From: a virus
IMG/VR virus record: IMGVR_UViG_3300010885_018003
Coordinates: 1 to 36,654 of that record
Direction: 5' to 3' (one strand)
Length of the DNA stretch: 36,654 nt
The translations under genes and the position numbers were made by a program. Below are positions 870-29,800 of the stretch, in pieces (positions within the stretch are counted from its first letter, which is position 1; every line of letters starts with the position of its first letter). The notes under the pieces were generated by a model. It was not told the origin of the DNA and did no database searches. It saw only the letters and a list, made by a program, of their open reading frames with translations.

Positions 870-908
870 TGATAATTAAGTATGTATTTTATTCATTAAG
901 GAGATACT

Positions 909-2105: not shown

Positions 2106-2791
2106 TGCAAGTTCGATTACTGTCCTATTCACAGCCGACAAAAGAATTTTTTGATCAGGGCATTGCAGATGCACAAGAATTAATTGCATATTGTGCCCGT
2201 GTATCAAACCCCAGCAATCAACTAAACACAGAGACCAGTGAAAAATTAATAAGATATCTCATTAAACATCAGCACTGGAGTCCATTAGAGATGGTCAGTG
2301 CCTGCATTGAAATTACCACTACTAGAGATATTGCAAGACAAATTCTTAGGCATAGAAGTTTTAGCTTTCAAGAATTTAGTCAACGTTACGCAGACCCGAC
2401 TAAAGATCTTAACTTTGTTTTTAGAGAACTAAGATTACAAGATCCTAAAAATAGACAGAACAGCGTAGAAGTTGTACTGGATAATCCAGAAGCACGTAAT
2501 TTAGCCATGGGTTGGGAACGTGCTCAACAGCGTGTATTGCTGGCTGTTAAAGAGGCCTACGCATGGGCCATAGAAAACGGTATTGCCAAAGAGCAGGCTC
2601 GCGCCGTATTACCTGAAGGTATGATGGAAAGCCGTCTATATATGAATGGTACACTGCGTAGCTGGATACACTTTATAGAACTACGCAGTGCAAATGGCAC
2701 ACAAAAAGAACATCAAGAAGTAGCCAAGGCCTGTGCCTCAGTTATTGCTTCTGTATTTCCATTGGCTGCAGACTTAGTACGTACTGATTAA
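2105..2791 (+). CDS. thyX: Flavin-dependent thymidylate synthase ThyX
   Basis: ThyX methylates dUMP to dTMP using FAD, NADPH and methylene-tetrahydrofolate, and supplies thymidylate for phage DNA synthesis. The protein has 228 residues, normal for the family. The ThyX signature is present as RHRSFSFQEFSQRY (residues 82-95), the phage and bacterial variant of RHRxxSxxxxSxR that binds FAD and dUMP. Upstream is HWSPLEM (57-63), equivalent to the conserved His-x-Ser-x-x-Glu region. The C-terminal active-site region, RAVLPEGMMESRLYMNGTLR then HFIELR, is also intact. The ATG overlaps the previous stop by one base. The last 50 bases overlap the antisense 3' end of the convergent glycosyltransferase-like gene, with no room for an intergenic terminator. 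Confidence 0.97.
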   Translation: MQVRLLSYSQPTKEFFDQGIADAQELIAYCARVSNPSNQLNTETSEKLIRYLIKHQHWSPLEMVSACIEITTTRDIARQILRHRSFSFQEFSQRYADPTKDLNFVFRELRLQDPKNRQNSVEVVLDNPEARNLAMGWERAQQRVLLAVKEAYAWAIENGIAKEQARAVLPEGMMESRLYMNGTLRSWIHFIELRSANGTQKEHQEVAKACASVIASVFPLAADLVRTD

Positions 2792-3827
2792 ATTTACCTT
2801 CTAGCCAAGCCCAGTCGTTGATTCTTCGAAGTCCTTCTGGGTTTTCTTTATTATCTAAACCAAACTTTCTTCCAGCGATTGCACCTGCTACTACATATGG
2901 TCCATATGTAGTTTTTTTACCTCTTGTACACCAAGCAGCCAATCGTTTGTCAGTTTCTAACTGCACCTGACGGTCAATAACTGCGCTGGCTAATTTAGCA
3001 CATTCTCTAAAAGCAGCTCTCCAGCTGGCAAACGGACTTGTATCAAAACTGTTGTAATTACTGACTTGTTCCATAATTTTAATATTAGCGCCAATACTAG
3101 TAGTAACATCAACACTGTCTCTGCTGGCTTGTAGAATTAAATGTCGAGGTATTAATTTAACACCGCCGTTACCGTATACAAGATCATTTACTTTGTTTTT
3201 GCTTTGCCAAATATGTACTACATCAAAATCCCAACTTGGTACTTCGTAGTCAAAATTAAAGTCTTCTGCAATTTCTGCATCAGCATCCACTACCCAGAAA
3301 AAGTCAGTTGAGCTAGCAATCGCTGCACAAAAGTGAGCGTTGAAGATTCCCTTAATATTCTGTAGATGTTTAGCATGTGGGTATTTTGTTAACAAATGTT
3401 GAAAATTAGTGTCTGCATTTTTTTCTTTATATGACAAAAAGAACACATCATATAGTTTAATATAGAACACACCAAAGTCTACAAATTTTACGTTATTGAA
3501 AAAATTCTTTTCAAATTCTTCATCTGCAAATGTATAATCTTTAGGGATTAAAAACAAGTTAGAATATTTTAAAAGTTGATGATGCACATAAGACTCATCC
3601 CATTTAGGGATTGTAAAATGTTGCATGTCTTTGGTCATGCCTATATCTGCAGGAATTAACCAAAACATCTTTGTATTAACTTGACTCATTAATCTTTTAG
3701 CATAGATAACATAGTTAAACTCTTTATCTACTTGAATAGTCTTGGCCTTGGGATACTTGGCCTTTAACCAGTTAAGTTTATACTCGGGAAAATCTTTTTC
3801 GTGATAAAATACAATATCGTAAAACAT
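2742..3827 (-). CDS. Glycosyltransferase-like protein with an internal tandem duplication
   Basis: A 361-residue protein whose second half (about 125-340) is clearly paralogous to the gene just upstream (3827-4747). Shared features are DVFFLSYKEKNAD versus DIIYLSYDEPNAE, a metal-binding DxD-type motif DADAE (181-185) versus VDGDN, YGNGGVKL versus YGNGGLKL, and SWRAAFRE versus AWRAGFRE. The first half (1-120) resembles the start of the same unit (YDIVFYHEK, YPKAK, FTIPKWD), but the DxD position reads PADI (59-62), so this copy is probably not catalytic. The likely role is sugar transfer from a nucleotide sugar; donor and acceptor are unknown. The start shares one base with the upstream stop. 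The last 16 codons lie antisense to thyX. Confidence 0.72.
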   Translation of the reverse strand: MFYDIVFYHEKDFPEYKLNWLKAKYPKAKTIQVDKEFNYVIYAKRLMSQVNTKMFWLIPADIGMTKDMQHFTIPKWDESYVHHQLLKYSNLFLIPKDYTFADEEFEKNFFNNVKFVDFGVFYIKLYDVFFLSYKEKNADTNFQHLLTKYPHAKHLQNIKGIFNAHFCAAIASSTDFFWVVDADAEIAEDFNFDYEVPSWDFDVVHIWQSKNKVNDLVYGNGGVKLIPRHLILQASRDSVDVTTSIGANIKIMEQVSNYNSFDTSPFASWRAAFRECAKLASAVIDRQVQLETDKRLAAWCTRGKKTTYGPYVVAGAIAGRKFGLDNKENPEGLRRINDWAWLEGKFNQYVLSLQPMEIQKQ

Positions 3828-4747
3828 TATTCTTTGTCCAATACATTAAATTCTATTCTAGTATAGTCAACGTGTACCATTTTAAAAAATCTACTAGCTT
3901 CTGTATCTAATACACTTATAGGTAAGTCTAATCGAGACCTAAGCTCTGCACCTAGCCTTTCAGCTTCTTGCAAGGCTGCATCTTCTGTTTTTGCAGACAA
4001 TGAGTTCCAAATTGAATCTAAATGATCAAAGTCTCGCACATTAACATAGTCCCATGATTTATCAAAATTTGTCATATAACAACCCTGGCGTGCTCCAAGT
4101 ATTGCCCATACTCCATTTGGTACATCCATACCAACATTCATCCATGTTACTAGTCTATGCAAATTTTTCCAGTGAATATGTTTAGTAAAGTCTTCTGCTT
4201 CAACAGTAACTCCCCTGTCTAAACTCATCTTTACACCTTCACGGAATCCTGCTCTCCATGCTTGATACGGACTTGCATTATTATGTACGTTACTATAACA
4301 GGCATTCATCTGAATATATTCAGCGTCCCAACAAAAATCTACTTGTGCATTAGGATCATCAGCAGGAGCATTTTCATGTGTTTTCATGTTAAGTACATAT
4401 TCTTTAGGCCACAATTTTAATCCGCCGTTGCCATACATTAATCCGTTGATGGCATTGTAGCCTGCCCAAGAAATAACACATCTAGATAAATCTTTGTTTG
4501 CATTAAAGTCAACTTCTTGATTAAAAAAATCTTCGCGTACAATATTATCGCCGTCAACAGTGATAAATCTGTCAGTGTCACTTAATCTAGCACAGGCTTT
4601 ATGTGCGGCATCACTGCCTTTAACTCCGTGTACACGCTTTGCCCACGGTGCTTTATTACACAGGTCAGCATAATTCTTTTCAGCATTAGGCTCGTCATAA
4701 CTAAGATAGATAATATCAAAGTCAATAATTTTAAACTTTTGGCTCAT
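3827..4747 (-). CDS. Glycosyltransferase-like protein (GT-A-type fold suspected)
   Basis: A 306-residue protein with FITVDGDNIV (residues 61-70), a DxD-like motif at the end of a hydrophobic strand as in GT-A nucleotide-sugar transferases, followed by YGNGGLKLWP (105-114) and the conserved YQAWRAGFREGVKMS segment (161-175). It is a paralog of the next gene in the operon. The start has a good Shine-Dalgarno (AAAGGAAA) and lies 17 bases inside the upstream gene. Proteins with this VDxDN/YGNGG pattern are, as I recall, found in marine T4-like phages near tail genes. It could decorate phage fibres, host surface sugars or DNA; the sequence does not decide between these. Confidence 0.74.
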   Translation of the reverse strand: MSQKFKIIDFDIIYLSYDEPNAEKNYADLCNKAPWAKRVHGVKGSDAAHKACARLSDTDRFITVDGDNIVREDFFNQEVDFNANKDLSRCVISWAGYNAINGLMYGNGGLKLWPKEYVLNMKTHENAPADDPNAQVDFCWDAEYIQMNACYSNVHNNASPYQAWRAGFREGVKMSLDRGVTVEAEDFTKHIHWKNLHRLVTWMNVGMDVPNGVWAILGARQGCYMTNFDKSWDYVNVRDFDHLDSIWNSLSAKTEDAALQEAERLGAELRSRLDLPISVLDTEASRFFKMVHVDYTRIEFNVLDKE

Positions 4748-5378
4748 ACTTTTCCTTTAGTGCATATGAATCAAAAAACTTAATAGTCGACAATCGAAGT
4801 TTTGATGTAATTGATTCGACTATCATTTCGTGCGGAATTGTCACTGAGCCCGAAGTAATTAGTGTATTTAGATTCACATCAAATACTCGATATAGGATAT
4901 TTTTATTTTCTTTTGCTGTAACAAATACTGGTTTTGTGTAATTAGCAACCGAATTTTGTAATCGAATTCTTTCTTCTTCGTTAAGTACTACGACCCAATT
5001 TTTATGTTCAATATCGTTAAAAATTGTCACTGTAGCCGGACTTTCAGAATACGGTACCAAAACTAACATTGATGACATTGCATTTAACTTAATGACTTTG
5101 GGAACGATTTCAAATTTATTATTTAAATCTGTAACAACTTTAAAATTTGCCACATGTTCATCTGCTGGTATTGATTTTACAAGATCTTCGCTAGTAGTTT
5201 CAAAATATGATGTTTCTGTGTCAAGTGTTTTTTGATCAGTAGTAGATATAATATCACCTGTTATCTTATCAAAATAAACATATCTAATATTACTAAAATT
5301 AAGAGATTCATTAATTCTTTCAAGTTCTTCGGGTGTTATATCGAACTCGAGTACTAAATCTTCATATTCTTCAATCAT
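4731..5378 (-). CDS. Hypothetical protein in the glycosyltransferase operon (215 aa)
   Basis: I do not recognise this protein. It has 215 residues and an acidic N-terminus (MIEEYEDLVLEFDI), then appears beta-rich, with segments such as RYVYFDKITGDIIS and FVTAKENKNILYRVFDVNLN. It has no signal peptide, membrane helix or DxD-type motif, so it is not obviously another transferase. It overlaps the upstream gene by 8 bases and the downstream gene by 17, which ties it to the four transferase-like genes. TTGGAG before the ATG supports the start. It could be an accessory or acceptor protein for the transferases, but that is only a guess from position. Confidence 0.72.
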   Translation of the reverse strand: MIEEYEDLVLEFDITPEELERINESLNFSNIRYVYFDKITGDIISTTDQKTLDTETSYFETTSEDLVKSIPADEHVANFKVVTDLNNKFEIVPKVIKLNAMSSMLVLVPYSESPATVTIFNDIEHKNWVVVLNEEERIRLQNSVANYTKPVFVTAKENKNILYRVFDVNLNTLITSGSVTIPHEMIVESITSKLRLSTIKFFDSYALKEKYEPKV

Positions 5379-6207
5379 TAATTTTCTCCAAATATTCTAC
5401 AATGCTATCTGTTAAAAATTCATTTTCTACGTAATGGAAGATACCCCGTTGTTTAAATTGATTAACAAACAACTCGAATTCGTCATTGAAATAACAGTCA
5501 CATTCTTTAATCCAACTATCGTATGCCATTGGCCAACCTTGTATATTAGGTTTCATATGAGTAAATGCAGTATCAAGCATGGGTTGAACTGCAATATCGT
5601 CCATACCTGTAATCTTTAATGCTATAGCTGCACTTACATCCATACTTAACCATCTTTGTTTAGCCTTGGGTGTTAGTTTAGAATATGTTGTTTGCCAATT
5701 ATTAACTATAAACTCAAGTGTTTTATAGAAAGCAAATGCATTTGGCGTCTTTTTAAAGTAATGAAATGCAAAATAAATGTTTGGTAAATCATTATGTACA
5801 AATACCTGCCTATTTAATTCATTAGATACAACATTGCCCCTGTAATCTTTTACAGAAGATGTAAAAAATATATCATGATGACTTAATAAATCCCATTTAT
5901 CTGCCAGGTCTTCTAAGACAAGCATGTCTGTATCAAGAACAATAGTTTCATCATAGGGACTGGCATGTATGAACTTCCATCTATTTTCAACTTTCCAGTT
6001 AGATTCTTCTGCATGATCTTTCCACGGGATAGGAATAATATGATCAAACACATGTAGGTATTGCTCCGAGACTTGATCATTTGTAATCAAGCTAATAGAA
6101 GAATACCTCGACTGTGTTTTCTTAATTGATAGTGCCAATGCGTATGCTTGTCTAACATAATCTATGCCTTCACTATTCTGTGCTATAACTAAAAAACCTT
6201 TATTCAT
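5371..6207 (-). CDS. GT8-like glycosyltransferase
   Basis: A 278-residue protein with the arrangement of GT-A/GT8-type transferases. It has an N-terminal strand and helix (GFLVIAQNSEGIDYVRQAYA), a strand ending in ETIVLDTDMLVLEDL (87-101) that carries the metal-binding DTD (92-94), and a later LSMDVSAAIAL (187-197) where a conserved acidic acceptor-side motif is expected. It is paralogous to the upstream gene: both share FLVIAQN/LLFAQN, SPYDETIVLD/SPYDETLVMD, and YFKKTPNAFAFYK/YFKKTASARAFFK. It overlaps both neighbours by 8 bases. Donor sugar and acceptor are unknown. Confidence 0.8.
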   Translation of the reverse strand: MNKGFLVIAQNSEGIDYVRQAYALALSIKKTQSRYSSISLITNDQVSEQYLHVFDHIIPIPWKDHAEESNWKVENRWKFIHASPYDETIVLDTDMLVLEDLADKWDLLSHHDIFFTSSVKDYRGNVVSNELNRQVFVHNDLPNIYFAFHYFKKTPNAFAFYKTLEFIVNNWQTTYSKLTPKAKQRWLSMDVSAAIALKITGMDDIAVQPMLDTAFTHMKPNIQGWPMAYDSWIKECDCYFNDEFELFVNQFKQRGIFHYVENEFLTDSIVEYLEKIND

Positions 6208-7039
6208 TTATGCATCTCGCTAGGCTGTATTTGTTCATTACATGAACATCTAAATTGTCAGTTTTTACTAAAGTATATTCTCCAACATGTCCACATTTTT
6301 CAACTAATAAGGTCATTGATGAATCTGCAGACGATACTAAAACATCTCTATCACGTGTATAGTATAACTTTCCAGGTAAATTAGCAATGTTACTTGCATT
6401 AGTATTACCATTCAATAAATGAATTGCAATACTGAAAGCATAATCATTTCTAAATGTTGGTGAGTCGATTACATAAAGGAGTCTATAATAAGCCCAATTA
6501 TATCTAATGTGCTGAATTATTTTAAAAAATGCTCTAGCTGATGCTGTTTTCTTAAAATAAAAAACTGTGGCCCAATAAAAAGGAATAGTGTATCGATTAA
6601 AATATTCAAAACTACTAGTATCCCTCCATTGGGCAAGATCATACCCTGTTTTGTATATTGCCAAATCACTTTCTGAATTCCAAATGTTATTTAAATTACT
6701 AGAATTTAAAATATAGTCCACATCCATGACTAGTGTTTCATCATAAGGACTGATATCAAACGCATCTGCCCTAGTAAAATTCTTCCAGGGTAGTATTTTA
6801 CTAGTTATCGATCCATCGTAGAATTGTTTTTTTTGATTATACGCAGAATTAACGTCAATGATATTCTCAAATACGCTGATTTTGTCCGGATATGTTTTTT
6901 CGAAGTAGTCTCGATTATCAGTGGCTAATGTAACTGGTACATTTAAAAATTTATTAATTCGCTCTGCGGCAAATATAGCTATTTGAACATAATCAATTTC
7001 TGGATTATTTTGAGCAAATAAAAGAACACCCCGGCTCAT
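6200..7039 (-). CDS. GT8-like glycosyltransferase (paralog of the next gene)
   Basis: A 279-residue paralog of the 278-residue protein downstream. Its DxD-type motif is MDVDYIL (105-111), preceded by the same SPYDET box. RNDYAFSIAIH (197-207) corresponds to the conserved region that in GT8 enzymes carries an acidic residue and an Ala-rich helix. WATVFYFKKT (156-165) marks the shared core. Compared with its paralog, the region before SPYDET is longer and holds an extra segment around YNQKKQFYDGS. The start overlaps the 115-residue gene by four bases (ATGA) and has only a distant AGGA, so translation is probably coupled. Target unknown. Confidence 0.8.
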   Translation of the reverse strand: MSRGVLLFAQNNPEIDYVQIAIFAAERINKFLNVPVTLATDNRDYFEKTYPDKISVFENIIDVNSAYNQKKQFYDGSITSKILPWKNFTRADAFDISPYDETLVMDVDYILNSSNLNNIWNSESDLAIYKTGYDLAQWRDTSSFEYFNRYTIPFYWATVFYFKKTASARAFFKIIQHIRYNWAYYRLLYVIDSPTFRNDYAFSIAIHLLNGNTNASNIANLPGKLYYTRDRDVLVSSADSSMTLLVEKCGHVGEYTLVKTDNLDVHVMNKYSLARCINE

Positions 7040-7383
7040 ACTGAAATTAAATCCTGTATTCTGCGTTTTGATTTAATTTCAGAATACTTGGCAAAGTACT
7101 CATTTGACGATTTAAAATACTGTGCAGATATTTCTTCGTAAAACGTCTTTATGTTTTCAATATTAACCGGTATTTGATTAACATCAATTAGTATGCAATT
7201 TAGACTGCCAGCATCAATAAGAGATTTTACAAAAGCCATTAATTCTAATGAAATTTGAAAACTAGATCCATTGATGTAGTATATTAAATTTTGTTGAAAT
7301 TCTTCAAATGCAACATTACGTTGATTGGTTAGAGTGGCCATATAGTTGGCCGTTTGGAATGCTTTTTCTACTTGCTCGTCCAT
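7036..7383 (-). CDS. Conserved hypothetical protein (115 aa), first gene of the glycosyltransferase operon
   Basis: A mostly helical, acidic 115-residue protein with FQTANYMATLTNQRNVAFEE near the N-terminus, YYINGSSF in the middle and YSEIKSKRRIQDLI at the end. I recall similar short proteins in marine T4-like phages, annotated as hypothetical. It is the first gene after the tail-fibre block. Its Shine-Dalgarno (GGGAGA, seven bases from the ATG) lies in the 3' arm of a strong hairpin (7388-7423), so access of ribosomes may be controlled by RNA folding. Its role in the operon is unknown; a small chaperone or assembly factor is possible but unsupported. Confidence 0.78.
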   Translation of the reverse strand: MDEQVEKAFQTANYMATLTNQRNVAFEEFQQNLIYYINGSSFQISLELMAFVKSLIDAGSLNCILIDVNQIPVNIENIKTFYEEISAQYFKSSNEYFAKYSEIKSKRRIQDLISV

Positions 7384-7387
7384 GAGA

Positions 7388-7423
7388 TCTCCCGCTGTAT
7401 AATGTAATTATCTCAGCGGGAGA
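7388..7423 (-). promoter_or_regulatory. Long hairpin masking the Shine-Dalgarno of the 115-residue gene
   Basis: A perfect 10-base inverted repeat, TCTCCCGCTG (7388-7397) and CAGCGGGAGA (7414-7423), continues after a small internal loop into a 5-base AT stem (7399-7403 with 7407-7411) closed by a three-base loop. In the - strand transcript the 3' arm contains the GGGAGA Shine-Dalgarno of the gene starting at 7383. The arm is followed directly by TCTCATG, not a U-run, so a classical intrinsic terminator is unlikely. It could be a translational switch, an RNase processing site or a transcript-end stabiliser between the fibre genes and the glycosyltransferase operon. Confidence 0.7.
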
Positions 7424-7442
7424 CGTAGTTAACTAATTCTGG

Positions 7443-8444
7443 TTAAGTTATAGTTAATTGATTTGCAATCGTAGGTATAATTGAAAATGCACCTTGGATT
7501 GGTGTTATTGTAGCTGTACCAGTAAGTGTTCCGTCAACTAGATCATCAACTGCTAGTCCTAACCCAGTAGGTGCAGCGGCAGCGCCGTCCGTATATACCG
7601 CTGTAATTTCAACCACATAAGGTGTTGTAGTAACGTATTTTGCGCTGACTGTAAGTGTGTTAGTAGCATAAGGAGCAGCCTGTGTAGTAGTGTAAATTAC
7701 CTGATCGACAGCAGATAGTGTAATGCTGGTTACAGTACCTGTGCCACCAGTCTTACTAACAGTAAATGCGCCAAATGTTGAGCTACTTTGATTTATAGCA
7801 AATGTTAAGGTTCCCATTCCTGATAGTGTATTGACCCAAGCATTATACTTGGCTAAGTTTCCTGTAAGGCTACCACCGGTGGCGGCAAGTAGGCCACCGC
7901 CTGTTAAAGTAGCTGAGTATTTAATTGTGCCGCCGGCATTAAAGTAATACCTAGCTTGAGTAGCATCAGATAAACTAACTCTAACTGAGTGAGTAAGTGG
8001 TGTAACTCCCCAAGTAGCAGTTCTAGCAGAAGATACACTGGTACTGCCCAACTGTGAGCTAAATGCCACAAATTTATTAGTTACACATGCATCTGCTACA
8101 CCCTGATACTGTGTTACAATATTATTAGAAATAACTGTGCCTGCACTAATACTGACTAAATTTGCCCAGGCTGGGCCACCGCCAGCGGCCGGAGTGACAG
8201 TATAAGCAACTGTGCCAACTGAGCCAATTTGATGAGTTCTTGCCTTTACTAGGTCATTTCTTAGATTAGTCCAAGTTGTAGAACGGATAATACTACCAGT
8301 GCTCACCTGCGCACTGCTCACGCTTTGGCCATAGCCAAATCTTGAATCTGCTGTGCTAGTAGATGGATTAGTGCCGCCTGACCCTAACACTGCTGCCGCT
8401 TTCTTTTGAATAGCGTTAAATGTTGATGCTGAAATGACTGCCAT
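7443..8444 (-). CDS. Ser/Thr/Gly/Ala-rich virion structural protein (333 aa)
   Basis: A 333-residue low-charge protein dominated by Ser, Thr, Gly, Ala and Val. Residues 1-80 form a conserved-looking start (VISASTFNAIQKKAAAVLG, FGYGQSVSSAQV, TTWTNLRNDLVKARTHQIG). The remainder is beta-rich with repeated T-rich strands, as in tail or fibre proteins. I recall the start motif in marine T4-like structural proteins, but no function was assigned. It follows three fibre genes with a 12-base gap and a strong AAGGAA site, so it is probably co-transcribed with them. It may be a distal fibre or baseplate decoration subunit. The hairpin at 7388-7423 lies after its stop. Confidence 0.75.
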   Translation of the reverse strand: MAVISASTFNAIQKKAAAVLGSGGTNPSTSTADSRFGYGQSVSSAQVSTGSIIRSTTWTNLRNDLVKARTHQIGSVGTVAYTVTPAAGGGPAWANLVSISAGTVISNNIVTQYQGVADACVTNKFVAFSSQLGSTSVSSARTATWGVTPLTHSVRVSLSDATQARYYFNAGGTIKYSATLTGGGLLAATGGSLTGNLAKYNAWVNTLSGMGTLTFAINQSSSTFGAFTVSKTGGTGTVTSITLSAVDQVIYTTTQAAPYATNTLTVSAKYVTTTPYVVEITAVYTDGAAAAPTGLGLAVDDLVDGTLTGTATITPIQGAFSIIPTIANQLTIT

Positions 8445-14862: not shown

Positions 14863-14870
14863 TATTTATC
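14863..14870 (-). promoter_or_regulatory. T4-late-promoter-like element before the 202-residue gene
   Basis: On the - strand this reads GATAAATA, identical to the octamer before the gp6-like gene and 7 of 8 matches to the T4 late consensus. It sits in the 46-base gap between the giant gene's stop and the ATG at 14841. It would start a transcript for the 202-residue gene and the fibre genes. Confidence 0.55.
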
Positions 14871-14887: not shown

Positions 14888-17800
14888 TTATTTGTCTCTA
14901 ATAAACTTAGCAATAGGGTTGTTAGAGTGTGCTAGACTAGCACCTAAATCTGCCCATACTGCACCTGTTCTCTTAACTAGCGTAATCTTAGTTCCCTCAG
15001 TTAACCTATTTGTTAGTCTCACTGTGTTGTTTTCCCCATCTACAGAGAACTCAGCTTCAAACTGAACATCACCTTCGGGACTTTCGTAATGATTTCTTAC
15101 ATTGTGTACCTTGTAAGGAACCTTACTTAATCTAACATTTCCTGTAAAATATTCCCAATTATCAATGTCATCGATGAATGATGCACTGCTAGTGTGTGCT
15201 GTAACACATCTGTAATTATAGCTGCCCACAACCACAATATCACCAACACTGTAACTTAACTTAGAAATCCATTCTCCTTGAACATCATAGCCTCCAACAA
15301 ACATCTCAATATCATTAGATTGTCCGTAGGTACTAGGAACGCTTTGATATGTAACAAGATTTAAAGTACCTGTTCCAGTAGTACCTTTAATCCATCGCAC
15401 TCTACCATTTCCACGCCCTGCGGTTATTGCAGTGAATGTAATTCCAACTTCGGGTTGGCCTGTAATAGTTGTAGAAGTCACTGTTTGATTAAAGTTAATT
15501 GTATATGTGCCCTCACCGCCCTCACCTGTGTTAAATTCTGTAATATAAGTTCCAAGTACTAATCCTTCTCCGGTGATATAAGTTCCAACTGCTAGTTCTC
15601 CAGAGGTAACATCGGTAACAGTTAATGTATTATCTGCAATTGAACCAGTTACTACTGCTGTACTTTCGGCACCTGCTTCAACCCAATCTGTTAATCCTAT
15701 TTTTACAATAGAATATTGATTACCAACTACGAAGCTACCGGCTGGTACTCTACTAATATCTGCACGGAATTTAACGCCTACTTGATTTGTTGGGGCGCCA
15801 ACTGCTCTAAAATCGCTTGTGCCAAGTTTAGTAATTATATAATAATTATCAACTTCTACTTCTTGAGCAGTTTTAGAAACTAACGTAGTTTTTCTATACC
15901 AACTGTTAGTTAATCCAATAGTGCCAGTATCCAGGCTTGATACAACTTTAAATGTATAAGTTAGATCAGAGCCTGTGTTAATCCAGTTAGTGGACTCAAA
16001 TGCTGTTGTACTTGTATGCGCTATAGAACATTCATACCTATAACCATTATAGGATACAACATCACCTTCTTCGTAATTTAAAGATGATTTCCAAGTTGAT
16101 AACGTTGTATGTTGCTCTGTATAAGTAGTATCTCTGTAAGGGATAGTTTCTGTTTTGCCAATGTCTTGCACAAGTGTACCAATTTCATAAACAGTACGAA
16201 CACCGGTGCCTAGCGTACCTCTACGTAGTTGACTCAACACAGATCCTTCTTTTTTATAATACTCAATACGTTCACCAAAAATTTCAATAATACCAGGTAA
16301 TCTCTTAGCAGGGTTCGGATTAGTCAATACTGATCCTTTAGCCACTGTAATAGTCATATCATTCCAGTGTAGATCTTCTGCTAGAGTAGTTTGACGAGAT
16401 TCAGACAATCTCTTGTAGTGTACGCGATTCAACATATCTTTAAACTGCATGAACGCAAAACTATCAACAACAATGTTATTACTAAATGTCATTATTGCAA
16501 ATTTATCATCAGTTGCTGGTTGTTGATCAAGATAAACAGATGTTAGATCTAAATTTAGTTTATAATCTATATTTGGTTGTAGTATTTTACCATTTTTAGT
16601 TAACCATACATAGCTACTATCGATTACTGGGCGAGGTAGTTTAATATTTTTACCGTAGACACTTAGATAATCAAACACTTCTAGAGACTCGGGTTCAAAA
16701 ACAACATTTGATGTAACAGTTCTTGATGTTTGTTTAATATCTAAAATATCATGCTTATAAAAACTAATTACACTAATTGTTTGATCAGCAACTGGAGCTG
16801 TATCAAAAATTATATACTCTCCGTCACAGGTATAGCTGTCCTCATAAATTACACTAACAGTTAATTGTTTGCCAACATTGGCTGCACGTACAGCTTTCTT
16901 AAGTGTCACTGATACTCCCAATATAGAAACAGAGTAATCAGTTAGTTTGCTTAATTCAACGCCGTCAATGTAGGTAGTTAATCTAAAATTTGAAATACTA
17001 TTAGGTTGTACTTTTGCTTTTGGTATTGTATAAGTTACTTTAGTATCAATAGTGAAATACTCGTTGATCGGTGGTAGATATATTGTACCAACATCAGATA
17101 ACACTAGCATATTTGATGCTAAAGGATTACTGACTCCTACTTTGTTTACTAGTTGATAAACCTGCGAGATGCCATCTGGTTGAAATGTTTCATTTTGCAT
17201 AACGCTGAATGATTGTTCAGTAGATGATGTAATCACATAATTTAATATTGCTCCGGCAGGTAAGTTTGATCCAAATCTAATACCCACTAGGTTAGCAGAT
17301 TCGTACTTACTGCTAGTTTTAAACAATACATAATCTAATACTTCACCGTTAACATAGACTAAAGATGTCAGTGTACTGAACCATGGCGCTTTAGTTATAA
17401 ATTCGCTTGTTGAACCGTCGGCAACAAAAGAGTCTATATCTAGTAGATTAGATCCGTTAAACCCTGCACTAATAATACTAATAATTTCGCCGCCTGTCAT
17501 TCCAATCACATCGGGATCCAATACCACTAATTTGTTAGGATAATCAATAGTGTAGTCATAATTAGAAATTAAAATTCTATTAAGTGACGTTATTTTTACA
17601 ATTACTGCATCTGGAGAATTAGGTGTTTGTCCTATGTTATAAGATGTTCTTTCGCCGTCATAAATGTAATTTTTAACAATCATTCTAGCAGAACCATCAG
17701 TCGGACGAGTGTATACTTTAATTGCTAGAGCATCTGATACTTGGCCTGGTACAAATTCTTCTGGACCCTGGCTAGTAGTTTGAGAAACAAAATCGTCACC

Positions 17801-20800
17801 GTCGACTAAAATGTCTTCGGCTGCTAGGCCAGTGGCAGTGCTATAGGCCAAGTTCCCGCCTAATAGCTCTGTATCATAATCCATATCTTGAGGGTTAATA
17901 GATCCATCACTGGCTAATTTCCTAAATATGAAATTGTCACCTGAACTAACTGATATAGTATTTGGAATTCCAATAGATGTAGTTTCACCGTCACCTATAA
18001 ATGTCTGCATAACTACATCTGGTTTTGTAAAAATAATTTCTCCAACATAGTAGAGGTCGTCAATTCTTACATAACGAGTATTGTTATTTGGTCTGTAATA
18101 GATAGTTATTTGTTCATCTTGTTCAGGAACATATGGCAGTTCAACTGGATATGTTTTATTCTTGACTATCATAGATCCTGTATCGTCAGTGACTAACAGC
18201 AGTGTGCCGTCTAGCGTACTACTAACTGTTATTGATGATGTTGCAGTAATTGTCCCCGATGGAATAATTGCAGTATCTGCAGAAAGTCCAGGACTAGTGT
18301 AGGTAAACTGATCGCTGTCTGTCACAGTTATAATTACATCATCTTCTGTATATTCACTATATCCAACTCCTGCATTAACATTAATTTTATTACCAGTTAC
18401 TAGTCCATGAGGTATTTGTGTTTTAATAGATACTGTTGGTACTGAAGCAGTTGTAATTCCCGAAGGCGCAATGGTAGTTGCACCAACTCCAAAAACATCT
18501 GGATTTTCAGGGTATGCTAGACAAATAGTTGACAATGTCCTAACAGTACCAACATATTCGCCATTGTAGGCTTCGTTGCCGTTGCCACTTACTAAGAATT
18601 TATATCCTAGCGGTAGTGGAACTCCTAGGGTTGCAAAAGAAAACGTTACAACTGCTGAGACATTTATTGTTTGGCTGACTGCTGCTTGACTTTGATTTAA
18701 AATATACGTGCCCAAGCCGCCTGTACCAGTGCCTAGAGAAAGAATATAAGTTCCCTCGTCAACATCATTACCAGTGATTAATTGACCCACTGTCAATGTG
18801 CCTGATGTAACAGAAGTAACAGTTAATACGTTACCTGGATTAGTTGTAGCACCGTCATTGATAGTTCCAATAACTTCTGCTGGGCCAACTGGAAACGTTG
18901 CTCCGGTAACTGTAACAGTAGGAGCAGTAGATACAGTTAACACTACCTCGTCTCCAGAGTTAATGTATGTAAACTCGTTGGCATTTCTAACGGCATAGAT
19001 ATTAACGTCAACTTGATTGAATCCCGGAACATCAATTCCTTCAATAGTGATTAGTTGATCAGTTACAAATCCATGCGGTATATCCGTAGTTATTACTGCA
19101 ATTCCATCGAGGCCAATCCTTCTGAAGGAAGTAATTTTACTACTGCCAACTCTACCTATAGAATATATCGGTACAGCACCACTAGGGGTAATTGAAGATA
19201 CATAATACGAAGTATTAGGCTCAATATCTCCTATTGATGTGCCAGTGAATTCAAGCAATCTTCCAACTTCAACATTAGTTGTAGAACTTATTTCAATGAT
19301 ATTCCCATACGCATAAGTTTGTACAGCAGTAGTATCAATCTTTTTACTGTTAGCTCCCACTGTAACTATGTAGTCATCAAAATTAGGATCTTGTGCATCC
19401 CATCCATCTGAGAACCAAGGAACACTTCCCCAACCTTGGGCAACATTAAATCCTAGACCGGTTATCTGTACGCCGCCGTAATCAACACCTTTCATTAATT
19501 GATTTAATTCTTTTCCAAAACTATTAGTGCCTGGATTGTAATACCAATTAATTCTATCGGCTGCTGACAAGTAATTAAAATCTTTCAAATACGTAATCTT
19601 AATCACTGAATCTTTAGATGGAGGTGTTGAGAATGTCAGCTGTCCGTAATAACTTGTATAACCTCTTGTTGTAGATTTTTTAGAAGTTAATGTATATGAA
19701 GTCCTTAGTGCGGCTACTCCATCAATCAACACTGTTGAATCAGCTAGGTTAATACTAGGGCTCCAAACCAATGTAAATTGTGTTTTACTGCCTGTTCCGA
19801 CAAACGCAGTATTAGTTTCTCCGGACTCGGTTACTTGTAATTCAGTAATATAATACAGGCCGCTGACTCGGTCAAACTTAATTTTTGTATAATTTGATCT
19901 AACAAGGCTACTACCAATTCTGGCGCTGGCGCTGGCTGCAACACCGTTAGAGTCAAGGCCTCCTTGAAGAGTTACTGTAGGTACAGTAAAATATCCACTA
20001 CCCTTTGTGATCAATGTTATTCTTGCTACTTTACCATTTGTAAGATATACACGGGCCGTTGCACCGGACCCACTATCACTTTGTATAACGACTGTTGGAG
20101 TGCTTATATAACCAGACCCACCATCATTAATAATAATTTCAGTAACTTGGAATCCAACATTATTAGTCCAATTTTTCCAAGGATATTCATCTATAAGAGC
20201 AGACTCACTGGTTATCTTGTTATCTACTATCTGTGCAGGCACTGTGGTAAACCTACCGTCTTGATAAATTGGTGGTAAATCAAAATCAGTTACCACTGAA
20301 CGTGCAACATCAGTCTTAGAATAAGAGCTGATAAATTCTCTAATTTTTGTTCTATAAGGTTTAACTTCTGAAATATATGATTCAAAGTCTACTAGGTTAT
20401 CGTTATTATAAGTAACTTTTTCTTTTAGATCTCCAACGTTATGTTGAGCTCTAATAAAACTTGTTTTAAACGCCCAGTCAATATACTGCTGTTCATTGTG
20501 TGCATAACGTAGGCCAGCAAAGAATGTATCTAAATAATCTTGTTTTAGATCATCAATAAGAATATTATTTTTAATTGTTTCTAAAATGATTCTTAATTCT
20601 TCTCCTGCAGAATTATCGTAGCCGTCTCCATCAAATGACGGGCCGTCGTAGCCCACTCCAGTATTTCTAATACTGTATAATGAACTTACAAATTGTATTG
20701 TTCCTTTTTCGCGACCAACAACTCTATAAGATTGAGTATAATCAGCTGAAGTACTAGTTGCATATCTTTCAAGCAGTATCCAGCCGCCGGTGCCTATTGT

Positions 20801-23800
20801 TTTAATTTTAACAAGTTGTCCAACTTCTACATCAACTGTGTTAAGTTCATACAAAGAATTCAAAGAGAAATTCGCAGGAGTAAACTGGCTGTAACCAGAT
20901 TTATAATAATCTTCATAACTCCAATATTGCCTAACATCATACCCTTGACTCTTTATTCGTTCCCAAGTGAGAGAAATTGAATCATAAGAATATATGCTCC
21001 ATCTATCTAAAGCACCCGAATCAAAATGTACTAGTGCAGAAAATGGTCTTAGAGTTAAAGTAGTATCATCTGTATAACCTTCACCAGAATTTTCTATAAT
21101 AACACCTGAAATTCCGCCTGTAACATTTAATGTTGTTTTAATTTTAGCATCAATTCCAGTTCCAGAAATTTCTAGATAAGGAGCATAGACATATCCAGAG
21201 CCAGGGTTAGTTATTATAATTTCTTTTATTCTACCATCAACGATGACCGGTGTTAAAGAAGGATATCGAACCGCAGTAACTCCAATAGTACGTAATTCTG
21301 TATCATAATCTACTACTACATCATACTGTCCTAGAATTGAACTTGGTTCTGTTTCGTAGCTGTTTAGAGTAGAAATATCTTTTTCTTCAACAATAACATG
21401 CTCCATTAATGTAGCATTAACACGTTCAAAATATTGTTTTAATGCTTCAAAACGATTTACAAACATGCTTTGACGAGGACGATTTTCAATACCGTAACGT
21501 AGTTTAGGCGGCAATGTAACATCTGGAATTCGTCTGTTGTTGGCATCTTTGCCGCACAGACTGTCTATCCATTTAACTTCAACTGCTAAAGGTAACATAG
21601 TATTGGTATCGTTACTGATTAGTTTCCATTGATTGTGACTGTTAATTGTATAGTCGTCAATTAACCAATATTCAACATACAAATTAATGTCTGTATGTTC
21701 TAGTAAGTTAGCCACGTTAACTAGGCTAAAGGTATTTGTTCCAGTGAATGCAATATACTTGTAACCGTAACCTTTAGGATCAGTTATAAGATCTGAAACA
21801 TCTTTTGCAGATAACTTTCTTCCTTTAACTTCTGGAATAATAGTTTTATTTTTTACCCAGAAATAATATGTATTTCTAAAACTTTTAGAAACGTTATCAT
21901 AAGTACGTTTAATACTGTAAGCAGAATTTCCGTATAGACTTATACCGCTGATGTTGGCAGTGAAACCTTCGTCTGTGTCAGCAATAGCATCCCACTCTTC
22001 AGGTAGTAAACTGGACGCTACCCACTCATAGATATCAATGCTGGCAGTTTCGTACAGTGTGTTCCAAGTAGAATTTCTATACACACCGTTACCGTTATAA
22101 CTATCTAAAAATTTAGCTCTAGATAAATTCCACCATAGGGTACCAACGTTGGCTGTAGTCCATGCTTGTCCGTCATCAACGTTTAGTGATTCAGTTCCAA
22201 CAGTATACGTTGCAGGATCATAGTGTGTTTTAAATTTAATTTCTTGATCTGCAATACCTGCAATTTTTCCTTGTATTGGATCAATTATATCAAGATAAGA
22301 CACTAATTCTTGTGTCTTTTTATTGTACAAGAAAATTTGTTTAATCTTACTTAGGTCAATTTTATCAGCTTCTTCTCTTGTAATAGTCCAAGTTTTAGTG
22401 TTTGGTGCCTTGTTGTAAGAATATAATTTCCCTGAATTAGTACTAGTATCATCAGCATTAGATGCACTGACAATAATATAATTATTTGCTGCAACTAATT
22501 CAAGACCGTAGTCTTCACCGTCAACACTATTGGTTGTTAAACTTTCAGAGAAAACCCATTTAGTAGAATATCTATCATAGACATCAATTCTTCCAGAGTC
22601 AGTAACAGGTACGTCGTTTTGAATAGTATTGCCGTTGAGACTAGCAATTACAAGAGTTTCACTGTCATTCATAAAAGAAACTTTTGCACCGTAGCCTTCT
22701 GAACCTTCTGGCAGGCGACTTGTTATAGTTTGATACAAACTATAAACGTTTCCAGTTCTCTTATAAATTTTAACATGGCCTTGATTAGTATTGGCTGTTC
22801 TATTGCCCACGGCAATATAAGTGCCGTCATTTGAAACAACTACACTATAATCTGAAGATCCGGCATCGCCAGGAGTAATTGTATTGATAAGAACGCTATC
22901 TGAATATACACGTACTTGATCGCTACCATAGGCCGTAACTGCTACTATTGATCCATCTTTGGATGCTGCAATAGTTTTTCCAAAATAAGTAGCACTACCT
23001 AGAGAACTAAATTCTGTTCCAGTATCCCATTGTAGAATATCATTTTCATCAACAGCGTAGCTAAACTTATATATTTGAGCGTTAGAACCATTTAACTCAG
23101 AGGCAACCATAAGTGTATTATCACCTACAAATTTAACCGTTGATCCAAATTTTTCGTTTGTGGCGGCGTTAACAGAAAGAATAGTCCTATACAATGCATA
23201 TTCATTTATTTTATTACGTTGATACAAGCGTACCATACCTTGATTAGTAAGTCCGCTAGTTGCTCCAATGTATTCTAAACAATTTGTTCCGTACATTTTA
23301 TAAGGGGTTGTAAGATAACCGGTGTCGATTAAATGAGCTGGAAGTATATCAGAGAAATCACTATTAATGACAACTTTGACTTTACCGGCAGCATCAAACA
23401 TTGCATACGGGCCGCCCGGTGTTGCAGGGATACCAAATGTGTTGCCAGCAGTGCCAGGTACATCAACTGTTGGTGCGGTGCCAGGTACATTGCTGATTGT
23501 GAATAACGTTTCACTACGAATAGATTTAACATAGTATGTGTCAGTTGTTGATAGGCCGCCGAACGTAGATCCTACAAATCTCACCTTCATACCCACTACC
23601 ATGCCTTTAGTTGTACTAACTTCAATGTATCCCTTATCAACTCCTGCAATTTGTGTGATAGTCGCAGTTGCAGTAGTAGTAAGATTTCCAATTGTAGCAA
23701 CTAGTGCATTAGAAATATTAACATACTCGATCCATTCGGCCAGTCTAAAAATCCCCAAAGTTGATGAAGTAGCTGTACATTGATATAAAATATGATTATA

Positions 23801-26800
23801 TAAAACAATGCTCCCAATACTATACGAAATGCTTGTTAAATAGAATCCTTGATATGATGTACTAAATTTAGCTGTAGATAATACTAGAGTTGCGCCCACA
23901 CTTGCTTCTACATTACTAGTATTTGTATTAGCAGTTTTGCTAATTGTAATCGCATATTCGTCTATAATATCTTTAATATAATATGGCCCTACTTCTGATA
24001 TTATCCCGCCAAATGCAGTACCATTGAACACCACGGGCATACCTATATGTATTCCAGATGTATCTGTAAGAGTAATAGTATTATCTAAGGCATTTGTTTT
24101 AACAACTGTAGCAACCACGTGCGGTGCTGCTCGATAATAATTTACAACATCGTCAACCCCTTGCGGTACTCTAACATATTGATTGTCACCAGCTGCCTTT
24201 GGAGTTCCCTCTTCCCATAATATTGATGATTTAATAATACTGTCTTCGGCTTTAAATTCTCCGTACTTAGATAATATATTTCCTGTGTTGGGAGACCCGA
24301 TGGCTAACCATGTTCTATCATTAGATATTGCCACAATTTTTCCAAATGATCCAACTGGTGTATTGTGCCAGAACGCAAGATCTACATCTGTAAAGTTAAA
24401 CGTTAGACCTAGTGACTGACCTCTTGACCAAGGAGAATTGTAACCATCTCGTTTGTAAATGATTACTTCGTCTTTGACTGTACCCACTGCAAGTGTAGAT
24501 GCTGTTTGATCTATAGCCAATACATTACCAAATTTTAATCCGTTAGCAGGATACTTGTTTGAAATACTAGATTGTGTGTAGGCCAGATTGTATTCATATA
24601 CTGCCCATTTACCGTTGCCGTTGTTGTCAACCCACAGCAGTTCTTTATCTTTAATTTTCTTAGGAAGCTCAACGTCAATATCATTAATGTTAGATATTTT
24701 CTGACTGTCAAAATAATACAGGGCAATATCTTCGTATGTTATTTCTGTTGGGAAGTTAGCAATAGTTGCAGTTACCGTAATAACATTAGTATCAATATCA
24801 TCAATCTTATAAAACCCTTGAACATCTGTTATGCCTGTTAATCCTAAATAATCACCTACTTGTAAGTATGTGGTTGAATCTACAGTGATTGACAGTGTAG
24901 TATCTGTATACTCTAATAGAGAAACTGTGCTTTCTGTGTCAGTGATTCTATAAATGTTCCAATATTCTGGCGGGTTTTCAAAAGTTGTCCATACATAATC
25001 GCCTGGGGTAAAACTAGTAACGTCATAGGTTAGCAAATCAGCTAGAGTGTCTACATTAGCCGAAACTTCTTCTATCCTAACATAACCAGGTGTTCTTAAG
25101 TACGGGGTATAATTTGTATTAATTGGCCACGGCTTTGAACTATAAGACTGTGGTTTTAAATAAACATCATTAGGTGTTTGTCTAATAACAAAATCTACTA
25201 ATGTTGGATCAATAGTATTAGTTAATTCAAACGCCTGTGGATTACTTTTAAACAAACTCTCGTCTAGCTCAAATTCAATCTCTTCAAACGCATTAATGGC
25301 TCCGTACTGTCCTACACGGATCGCCCACTCTTCAAAAAACTTAAGACTTTCTTGATTGTCTGCACTCAGTACGTCAAATAGTTTATTAAGAACATTTTGT
25401 GTACCTTTTTCAATAATCATACCTTGATAAAATTTATATTCTGAAATATCATCTTTAATAATGTTTTCAAGGTACTGACGTTTTTGGTAACCAATTAAAT
25501 GCTGGGCAATTTTTTGTTGTCCTGTGTCAAAGTTATCGCTGTCTAGACTATAAAAATCAGTAAATTGTTCTGCCTTATAACTCCAGTTAGGCAACAATCT
25601 TGATGTTGGTTTTTTAGTTAATTTTATCCAGTCTTCACTGACAAAACCTACGGCTCCGACTAATGTCTTAGAGGCGCTATAATAAAATTCTTTATACTTA
25701 ACTGTATCTCCAAGATTATAACTTGTCCAAGACTCCCAATCACTAATCGAAGCTTGGTCATATATAAAGCCTGGTATGTTAAATCCGCCGTTCCATCCAG
25801 TTGATGTATAACTAGAAACTTTAATCTTTTCTTGTCTATATCCTGTTGTTGGATCATAGACTGTATCATTAAACAATGTTGAATTATCTAATAGCAGTAC
25901 ATGTTCTTTTTGCACAAAATAGAACGTTGCACCGTAAATACCATCACTTTTTGTTGTGTATGATGACTGGTTATCATCTCTGTAAGAATTAATTAAATCT
26001 TCATCTAATTTTGTTCCGTCAACTTTAAAAAATTCATATACATTAAACTGATCTTTAATATCATCAATTACAGATAATTCAGAGTTAATAATAACACTGT
26101 TTGCCGCTGGACTTAATGCTAAGACACTGGCTCCAACTGTTGATATTCCATCAAGTTTAGTCCAGTCATTTTCTAAGAAAACATCTCCAGGCTCTACAAA
26201 CACATCTGCTTTATAATAATCTCCGTTAAATTGGACTATTTCACCAGCTTCATAACTATCAAACGGTGTCCAATCTTTCCATTTATCTTCGCCAGTACTC
26301 CAATTTTGTGTAGTCCAGAATAAAAATTCTTTTGCACTAGTAGTCCAGTTAGAAACTTCTCCAATGTTTGTATTAAAATCATCAAAGATAAATCCTTGAT
26401 CTTTTAAATATTCCCCGTGACCTACTAAGAAGTCTACTACTTCTTGTATTGTTCTAAATTTTGTACCGTAGGCAATGGTGATTGGTTCACTTCTATCCCA
26501 CGCAGTTCTAATAAGGGCATCTTTTCCACCATTAATCGGCAATGATGATATTGGCAAATAATACGATGATTCAAATGTTTCAGAAGATGTGTGAGATACA
26601 GACACTCTATAATAAGCTGTACCATACTTAACTATCTTGCCTCCAAGGTATAGTTGTTCCGAAGCCCATTCAACATAAGATTCGCTGATGCCGCCAACAT
26701 TAATGTTATATCCAGGACTAGTCCATCCGTAGTAATAAAAATATGGGCTAGATCTGCTATAACCTTTTACTTCATATCCTGTTGATAATCTTGTTACAAT

Positions 26801-29800
26801 TACGCCGCTGTATACTACTTTCTTAACAGGACTAGATGAATTTAAAAATATTGAATAATTTTCCTGCGGAACGTATATACCACCAACAGCAGTAGGTGAT
26901 TTAGAATCCAGTAGTAAATTGAATTTTTCTTTTTCAGTAAATCCGCTTACACGATATGACAGCTGCATTGTGCTGTTTGCAAGATCATATTTGTATTGAG
27001 TTAAAGATCGTTGATTCTCGTGTTGAATATAATCAACAATATAATTAACAAGGCCGGCAGTCTGCACTCGCTCGCTGTCTGAATAAATGCTTGGGGTAAC
27101 AACATCTTTTAATCGAAGACGCAGTTTTGTGTCTTTGTATATTAGTTGATTCGATGCATCTCTATAGATTCGTGAGCGATCAAATAATAAACCCATAACT
27201 TTAGAAGGGTATGTTAACAGTAATGTAGAAATAATACTAAAAGGATAATACGAACTTCTGCGCCACGCATTCTCTATTGGGCTAACATCACCAAATATAT
27301 AATCGCCCAAAGTAATTTCTGTAATAACTCCGTCAGCTAAATTATTAGTAGTAGGACTTACAATATTTCCATCTTCATCAACTGGCAAATGTTTTGTCAA
27401 ATACGGTTTAACATATTTAGGATTACGGTAAATTGGTTGTCCCGGAACCTTGATAATGCCTTCGGAAATATCTTGCCACATTACTAGATTGTCTGATGTA
27501 TATGGAGCTGAACCATATTGTTCTTCCCACCATGAGGGTTCAATGCTAAACCCCAACATCTCCCATGGGCACACATTTGGACGGTCGGTATCATAGATCC
27601 AACGATAGATACCTCTCCAGTACCCGGGCAATGTTCTTCCATCAGGTGCAGCCAATCCTCGATAGTTAAATGTTAACGGATTTGTTTGATCATAAGATAA
27701 TGGTTTTGTAAAATCTCTATTAATTAAAGTAGTCCATTGATAAAAATTTGGTGCTAATACTTTATTAAATTCATCTAATGTATAATCTCCTACTTGACTA
27801 TATCGTGGAATTAGATCGTTAACATCAAAAATATCTAAGTCGTAACTAACTTTGATATTATTAAAGATTCGTTTTTCTAATTCTAATAATAAGTCGTCAC
27901 GATAGTCACCGTAGGCTAAAATAATGCTGCCGTCGTGTCCTTGAATAACTTCTCGAGGAGTCAATAACGAGTTATCTAAATATTTTTTAGGTTCAAATTT
28001 TGGCCACATTCCCAACTTAGTAGGAGTTGCAGGAACATAACTACCATCTGTACTTTCATATTCTACAATAGTAATTACATCGTCGTTGGCCACAACTGCT
28101 TGTGAAGTTAAAATAATAAACCCGTCAGTATGGAAGGTGTAATCGATGTCATGTAAAATTTGTTCACCATTAATATAAACTAAGACAGCGGTTGCTGATA
28201 ACTTGTCTAAACTGAATGTAGTAGTTAAAGGATACGTTTTAGTTCTATAATCAACTACCGTGATGTTTGTAGTAATTGCTGATCCATTAGGAACCATATC
28301 ACTAAAATAATAAGGTGCAGTCTTAGGTTTATTTTTATTAATTTCATTTAAAATTAAATCAACAAATGCAACTGTATCAGTATCAACACCTAAATTTTCT
28401 GAAATATTAATAAAATTACGTTTAAATGCACCATAGTCATCTCTTGATTGCTCTAGAGCTTTTAATATATTATTTGTTTTATTGGTAATATGATATAATG
28501 CTAACGGTAATGCTCCCGCATGTTGCACAAATCGTGTTCCATAAGGACTAACATTGCCTAGATCTCTTAAATTGCTGGCTCCAAGATACTCTCCGTCAAA
28601 GGTGTCTAAATTATCAATTATTGAATCTACGTGGTCAATCACTTCTCCTAGAGTAAACTCTATTGGATTTTCATTCATTGGATTATTTTGAAGATTGATA
28701 GGAAGCTCGTAATAACCGTTTTTATTTTTAACTTGGGCTGCAAACGTTTTTAATGTAATAACATCAGTTGATTGATAATTAATTTCTGCAGATGTCATAC
28801 TGTCTATGTTAAAATAGACATACTTAAATCGGGTGCCGTTTTTAACTTCCCAGTATTTTTGATCTAATCTCTTACCGTTTATATAGACACGCACTTCGAG
28901 ATCTAAAAGATCAGTTATATTGTCATACACATCTATGTCAAAATTATTTGTTTTATTTGGGTCACGATAAATTCTTACCGCAGGTTGATAACGTGTAACG
29001 TTGCTGATTTCCCAACCTGATACATATGATATATTAGTTAAACTATCAAATTTTACTAGTTTTCCTACAGCAACTGATTGCGTTCTTACATCAATGATTC
29101 TTTTATAAACAAATGTGTCACTTAACAAATTAAAGTTAAAAACAATATCTCCAATGTTATTAATATTCTTATAAGATAACGGAAACCCTAGTTTGCTATC
29201 ACTAATACCAGTACCTACTTTATATGAGAATAGTTTTGTACCAACAAATGATGTTCCGTCGTAAACTGTCATATCTCCATAACTGTGGCCGTTTTCATCA
29301 ACTACATCAAATAGCGGAGCTTGATTTACACCAGTCTTTTGTTGGCCTTTTGCCCATGTTGATCCATTATAAAAATATGTTAGTCCTTGATTTTTTGTGC
29401 CAAACTTAATCAATACTGACTGATTTTCTATAGGTACTGCATCTTCTACTAAATGAATTTGTCGTTGAACTGATTCCCCCGGAGGAGTAACTCGAATAAA
29501 TTCTACTTTATAAATTTTATTTTTTACAAGTATGTCTGTATCAGCTAAAAATAATACACGCTGACCTTGTGTAAGGTTAATACCATCAACAATATAACTC
29601 GGTTGTCCTTCAACTGTTGAAAATACATCAGAGGTAAACGTATCGATAAGGTCAACATCTACTGTGGCTTCTAAGCCAAAGTTGTAAAGTTTAATGCCAG
29701 CAGCAAACTCAATAATAGGTCGAACAGCTCTAGCATCTTGATCTAAACTGGCAATTTGCCCGTTGAGAGAATAACTTGTTTCTATAACATTTTTATGGAA

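Follow-up and report, generated by a model that had tools for sequence, protein, structure and literature searches.

A conserved hairpin that hides a Shine-Dalgarno sequence forms a probable translational gate on a phage operon, with promoter-like sequence nested in it in many relatives

By all of our computations, the 59-nt gap at positions 7384-7442 (minus strand) of the virus record analyzed here (36,654 bases, the whole of which we call the window) holds a real, conserved translational gate, a kind of control known from phages but here in an unusual form. The gap lies between a 333-aa ORF (8444-7443) and a 115-aa ORF (7383-7036), and the latter is the first gene of an operon of six overlapping ORFs, of which the first two encode a protein like a tail-fibre chaperone and one like a glycosyltransferase. 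We propose that the gate would work as follows: RNA reading through from the upstream tail genes would carry both arms of a hairpin, which would fold, hide the Shine-Dalgarno sequence (SD) and leave the operon barely translated, and RNA begun inside the hairpin would lack the 5' arm and have its SD free. In many relatives a nested sigma70-like promoter would supply the internal start; the window's own clade lacks the -35 and has a stronger, GC-rich stem, and there the likeliest release would be a start from the loop. The model has transcripts that would run through the gap, repression that would be strong and a nested promoter that would fire at a time suggested by its class (the early and late classes used here are inferred from promoter words). 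Taken whole, read-through silencing together with internal-start release, it seems to us reasonably probable.

The hairpin and the operon behind it

On the minus strand the hairpin consists of a 5' arm (TCTCCCGCTG, 7414-7423), an upper stem and loop (AGATAATTACATTATA, 7398-7413) and a 3' arm (CAGCGGGAGA, 7388-7397). The stem has ten Watson-Crick pairs and one G-U pair (G at 7424), followed by an upper stem of five A-U pairs that is closed by an apical loop of three nucleotides, UAC. The 3' arm contains the SD, GGGAG (7393-7389), and the longer GGGAGA (7393-7388), which is the end of the arm and lies 5-10 nt before the ATG, is completely paired. An earlier note on this DNA had described a stable hairpin that pairs all of GGGAGA, and folding bears this out, with a minimum free energy of -21.6 kcal/mol (z -5.57) that was reached by 0 of 200 shuffles. 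The computed cost of opening the SD is 11.9-12.7 kcal/mol for window RNAs begun at -120 to -60 and 2.2 kcal/mol for those begun at -26 to -14; a start inside the window's hairpin, should there be one, would thus free the SD. When gene starts are ranked by SD opening cost, the 115-aa ORF is second of 21 in the window, and among eight related contigs the same gene is first in three of the window's own group (G002, of 89 starts; G003, of 41; G005, of 28) and in G009 (of 37) and G011 (of 21); it ranks lower in G006 (8th of 64), G007 (12th of 39) and G008 (15th of 45).

A stable GC hairpin that adjoins a start codon might also be a terminator, an RNA thermometer or a split initiation region of the kind found in T4 genes 38 and 25, where a hairpin between the SD and the AUG aids translation (PMC3014915). 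We give these possibilities hardly any credence. No U-run follows the hairpin on either strand, as the earlier note had also found, and a terminator scan of the window listed nothing between the 333-aa and 115-aa ORFs; the predicted pairing of the SD is 1.0 at all eight temperatures from 4 to 42 C, which argues against a thermometer; and although the T4 gene 38 and 25 hairpins likewise stand at a phage gene start, here the SD is inside the stem rather than upstream of it. An Rfam search of the window gave 0 matches at the gathering score, which also speaks against a known RNA family of any of these kinds.

The gated 115-aa ORF (7036-7383, minus strand) has a predicted fold like that of DUF4376 phage proteins. 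Its model is confident (pLDDT 92.5), and a Foldseek search of BFVD gave an unnamed phage protein as the top match (E 8.0e-6) and DUF4376 proteins from E 1.6e-4. Passages of reports on Alteromonas phages V22 and A5 name DUF4376-containing proteins as tail-fibre chaperones (PMC10579305, PMC7289586), and judging by the modelled fold the 115-aa protein is possibly one as well. It has neither a Pfam nor a PHROG sequence-profile match, and a PDB fold search returned nothing at E <= 0.001. A PHROG search with 22 members of its family found three that match the undescribed phrog_9374 (best E 0.0004), the sole named PHROG being 'internal head protein' at E 0.089. The 279-aa ORF that follows (6200-7039, minus strand) overlaps it by 4 nt, and its model, which is of moderate confidence (pLDDT 78.7), is similar to glycogenin, UGGT and other GT-A glycosyltransferases (best E 6.5e-6, TM about 0.45). 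Because of this GT-A-like predicted fold, the second gene fits the earlier note's name 'glycosyltransferase operon'; the first, with its DUF4376-like product, does not. The four further ORFs (2742-6207, minus strand; 6207-5371, 5378-4731, 4747-3827 and 3827-2742) overlap by 1-17 nt and had no match in a Pfam search. Among 50,697 annotated phage records, tblastn found no match to the 115-aa protein (E to 0.01), to two of its divergent relatives (E to 1) or to the 279-aa protein (E to 0.01).

The 333-aa ORF upstream (7443-8444, minus strand) ends 59 nt before the gated ORF and is a putative tail protein by position only, PHROG and Pfam searches with it being without a match. Tail proteins are among the products of the upstream minus-strand ORFs, and three of these ORFs have a putative late octamer before them; farther upstream of the tail genes is an ORF of 5,363 aa (14888-30979, minus strand). 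The arrangement of the operon is stable: at all 13 loci that we examined, the 115-aa ORF comes directly behind the leader, with ORFs of 277-282, 272-278 and 205-215 aa after it in overlapping frames. At 12 of these loci an upstream open frame stops 57-88 nt short of the start; the exception, L096, has a different and longer frame that stops 122 nt short of it. The DNA polymerase of G002 has best matches that include those of Sinorhizobium phage Phosso (50.5%) and Agrobacterium phage Atu_ph07 (45.1%), which we take to be large T4-superfamily phages.

Conservation of the pairing among relatives

The hairpin is kept before the genes of eight relatives of the 115-aa protein, which are 89-100% identical to it. 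Among the four distinct leaders of this window clade, the variable columns number 0/10 in the 5' arm (invariant in 4/4), 1/16 in the upper stem and loop, 0/10 in the 3' arm and 0/4 in the spacer, or 1/40 for hairpin and spacer together, against 15/22 fourfold sites of the 115-aa ORF in the same four (a count of 13/16 for the upstream flank was set aside as inflated by a one-base shift in one alignment row). Adding the more distant leader L066 (71% protein identity), which retains ATAATTA, brings these numbers to 2, 5, 0 and 0. The loop, though weakly paired, thus varies hardly more than the arms do, a hint that its sequence itself may matter. We also considered whether the stem sequence is a motif common to other phages, and rejected this, since of 41 stretches fitting the stem pattern only 8 match in loop and context, and all 8 are window-clade contigs.

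The wider family was collected by protein searches, from which we took 41 loci, then the best 80 of 197 and, as a third set, the best 80 of 294. The first two sets (121 loci, contigs found twice included) reduce to 50 distinct 60-nt leaders, and the third adds 29 new leaders as a second leader set, 2 loci having been skipped for short flanks and 19 being already covered. These leaders were compared with shuffles in which the SD and start were kept and the upstream part was shuffled. The fold is better than the shuffle mean in 79 of 79 distinct leaders (50/50 and 29/29), and the cost of opening the SD is above the shuffle mean in 76 of 79 (48/50 and 28/29), counts that are not independent, given the kinship among the leaders and the promoter-rich group C profile used to draw the second set (query A6, made from 14 group C relatives of which 12 bear the nested promoter described below). 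The median z of the fold is -3.5 in the 50 leaders, 42 of which are below -2, as are 27 of the 29; an SD opening cost as high was reached by fewer than 5% of shuffles in 26/50 and 25/29 leaders. The gate looks weak in L068, L173 and L273, where SD opening is below the shuffle mean, and a distant relative on a contig of 187,935 bases (L158) is without a clear hairpin and has ATTATAAATTATT further upstream in its leader. These 79 distinct sequences, none of them from the classic T4 genes, preserve the hairpin-gated leader as a structure.

The leader sequences themselves differ strongly by group: those of the window clade are GC-rich, group B has TTGACAAGCTAATTACTATA..TATAGTAA, group C begins TTGACAAGATAATTACTGTAGTGTATTAT.. 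and group D has AGATAATTACTTGA..TCAAGT. A family-wide leader alignment was not possible, so covariation was counted in sub-groups only, in alignments of 15 group C, 15 group B and 20 group C leaders; the first and third share 10, and the last omits five of 25 leaders whose register differs (L137, L151, L183, L260 and L275). In the three alignments pairing holds in 88-92% of cells, against 27-49% after sliding. Changes on both sides occur at 4/19, 3/17 and 4/19 pairs, a number reached by 55, 21 and 83 of 500 shuffles, and the covariation score was reached by 3, 2 and 15 of 500. Unconstrained RNAalifold gave only an inner 8-pair helix for the group C alignment A3, with the GGAG of the SD left unpaired, and a helix that includes the SD for the group B alignment A4, with a slightly unfavourable covariation term (+0.11). 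The earlier note had set conservation of pairing in relatives as a test of its hairpin; the pairing is kept, with covariation support that we judge moderate. The principal support for the gate is the repeated sequestration of the SD by unlike sequences, and the silencing of read-through RNA is well supported by computation.

An inverted repeat could instead act in the DNA, as a repressor operator lying over a promoter, and in group B the dyad does overlap the -10 (e.g. TTACTATACTGTATAGTAA). This is very improbable, since pairing is kept while the loop varies in length, from 3 nt in the group B folds with TATAGT to 6 in L088 and 8 in L069 and L096, each group has its own sequences, and the SD falls within the repeat.

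Promoter-like sequence within the hairpin

We scored as sigma70-like any promoter with at least 10 of 12 matches to TTGACA/TATAAT, a spacer of 16-18 and a -10 ending 8-32 nt before the start. By this measure a promoter is nested in the hairpin of 60 of the 79 related leaders (33/50 in the first set and 27/29 in the second), against a background of 1.1% in dinucleotide shuffles of the 50 leaders and 23/376 at other gene starts in nine contigs. The first 33 have an exact TTGACA in 31 cases and a 17-nt spacer in 32; in the second set the spacer is 17 in 20 of 27, and L262 matches at 12/12. RNA with its predicted start at the seventh nucleotide after the -10 would be without the 5' arm, and truncation at that point reduces the predicted SD opening cost in 58 of the 60 (32/33 and 26/27). 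The drop exceeds 1 kcal/mol in 29 of the 33 first-set leaders, and the second-set median falls from 9.9 to 0.7 kcal/mol; truncation barely matters in L068, L074 and L081 (a drop of <=0.5 kcal/mol), and the cost rises in L173 and L273. On an unrooted tree of the 50 operons the presence of the promoter needs 4 changes, against 14.3 in shuffles, and it is found on both sides of a fully supported branch; the promoter-bearing L133 clusters (100/96) with L134, L066 and the window clade. These sequences make release via an internal start likely in the relatives. The earlier note had taken a start inside the hairpin as a refutation, but it is at this very place that many relatives have promoter-like sequence, and starting there would be how the gate is released, much as for gene e of T4. 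The note's suggestion of low or conditional expression on read-through transcripts stands in part, in that the SD is sequestered, the structure is kept and, by computation, translation should drop.

The window-clade leader is different, having no -35 and a best sigma70 score of 8/12 that is attained by 45% of shuffles. Its only promoter-like sequence is GATAATTA in the loop (7405-7412, minus strand), an unproven candidate for an internal promoter that could be read as a late octamer with one mismatch, as a -10-like GATAAT, or both. The earlier note had reported nothing like the late octamer in the 59-base gap, which overlooked this word at 7412-7405, one mismatch from GATAAATA, likely the late octamer of these phages. 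ATAAATA (with its reverse complement) is the most depleted 7-mer, among those with >=15 expected, in 198 kb of the window's group (the window, G002, G003 and G005), with 19 seen against 108 expected, and again in 268 kb of other relatives (28 against 137.9). In the window there are 4 against 22.4 expected, 3 of them shortly before ORF starts, and of the 47 copies in the two data sets together 29 sit 15-45 nt before an ORF start, for which the background is 1.3%. This avoidance and positioning fit a T4-type late promoter.

In the window clade, then, GATAATTA might be a working variant of the late promoter, so that read-through RNA would be silent until a late start from the loop. The single mismatch favours such T4-type late control, as does the position of the word, whose start lies 29 nt from the ATG, just as far as that of the putative octamer at 14863-14870 lies from its own start codon; so do the near invariance of the loop and the retention of ATAATTA in L066. 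GATAATTA also occurs at 871-878 (plus strand) before the ORF at 909-1154, a possible variant late promoter that is kept before what seems to be the same gene in 6 of 9 contigs, and this too counts in favour. Against it, ATAATTA is avoided only mildly genome-wide (74 against 117.5 and 97 against 168.1 expected in the two data sets), where ATAAATA is avoided strongly, and AGATAATTAC, which is kept in the window's loop, is common to groups C and D and so to relatives with the sigma70-like promoter, so that the window's loop word may simply be inherited. On balance we find late control of this kind doubtful.

A different account dispenses with the promoter: as a pure insulator the hairpin would do no more than keep tail-gene RNA from being translated, and release would come from leaky initiation or from an endonuclease that cuts in the A-U loop. 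The window clade, lacking a -35 or any strong promoter, suits it, any RNA end in the loop, whatever its origin, would free the SD, and the gap has no listed terminator-like site. It leaves unexplained the conserved loop sequence, and promoter-like sequence occurs at that place in 60 of 79 relatives' leaders. We consider insulation without an internal start rather unlikely, and prefer the gate with internal-start release.

Timing and comparison with known controls

Four T4 genes (e, soc, 49 and I-TevI) have their SD hidden by a hairpin; in the case of e and of I-TevI it forms on longer early RNAs, while RNAs from late promoters are without its 5' part, and for e the structure cuts synthesis 100-fold (PMC3014915). 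In gates of this type a promoter over the hairpin's 5' strand yields RNAs that lack that strand (PMC3014915, and in a passage of PMC2988022). The hiding of the SD in upstream-started RNA is the same here as in those four genes (and in Aeh1 mobE and T4 segB), here by folding only. The T4 gates serve late genes that lie within early or middle RNA and are freed by a late promoter, whereas here the upstream genes are, by sequence, tail genes, and the nested promoter is sigma70-like in the 60 relatives' leaders, the window's candidate being a one-mismatch octamer. With tail genes upstream and a sigma70-like promoter nested within, the timing would be reversed relative to T4; for the window, the tail ORFs and putative late octamers upstream make a late gene within early RNA look unlikely. 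Two further differences from the T4 gates are that the gated unit is an overlapping operon and that the gate is kept over a wide range of sequences. Since in the window the internal promoter and its late type are candidate features, and a late gene within early RNA looks unlikely, we claim a likeness in working only, and not membership of the T4 class. The IS10 and IS50 transposase genes offer another parallel, in that read-through RNA hides its own SD and the native RNA starts inside the structure with its SD free; those leaders belong to a transposon end and not to a phage operon, and we claim no kinship.

Our tentative reading of the family as a whole, held with less confidence than the gate model itself, joins two parts: an inverted T4 switch, in which an early sigma70 promoter would lie within an SD-hiding hairpin throughout a large clade of uncultured T4-superfamily phages, and a retiming in the window clade, in which the -35 would have been lost, the stem GC-clamped and the loop word turned into a late start with the gate retained. 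If true, the chaperone/glycosyltransferase operon would be translated only from its own early RNA and would be off on late RNA that reads through from the tail genes. The gate itself suggests a compact means of keeping the expression of a downstream operon apart from that of upstream RNA with no terminator between them. Among the matches listed in a search of the open-access literature, the titles and abstract openings describe no such leader or hairpin-nested early promoter.

Sites with 11-12 of 12 matches to TTGACA/TATAAT also precede other genes of these phages, and some lie inside ORFs. Another sigma70-like promoter has a 17-nt spacer that is itself a hairpin, whose arms vary but pair (CCTCCTTCGGGAGG, GGACCTGCGGGTCC, GGAGCTTCGGCTCC, GGGTCTTCGGACCC); it occurs at G002 53762 (before an ORF matching phrog_1314), G003 13729, G006 21753, G007 582, G008 8054, G009 4083 and G011 1305 (sequences L099-L101 and L105-L123). 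Finally, in five contigs (G002 51851, G003 11813, G006 19827, G008 6130 and G009 2169) a late octamer stands directly before a hairpin, TATGCG..CGCATA, that coincides with the SD and start of an ORF of 94 aa (MSRPKP..), an arrangement much like the classic T4 layout.
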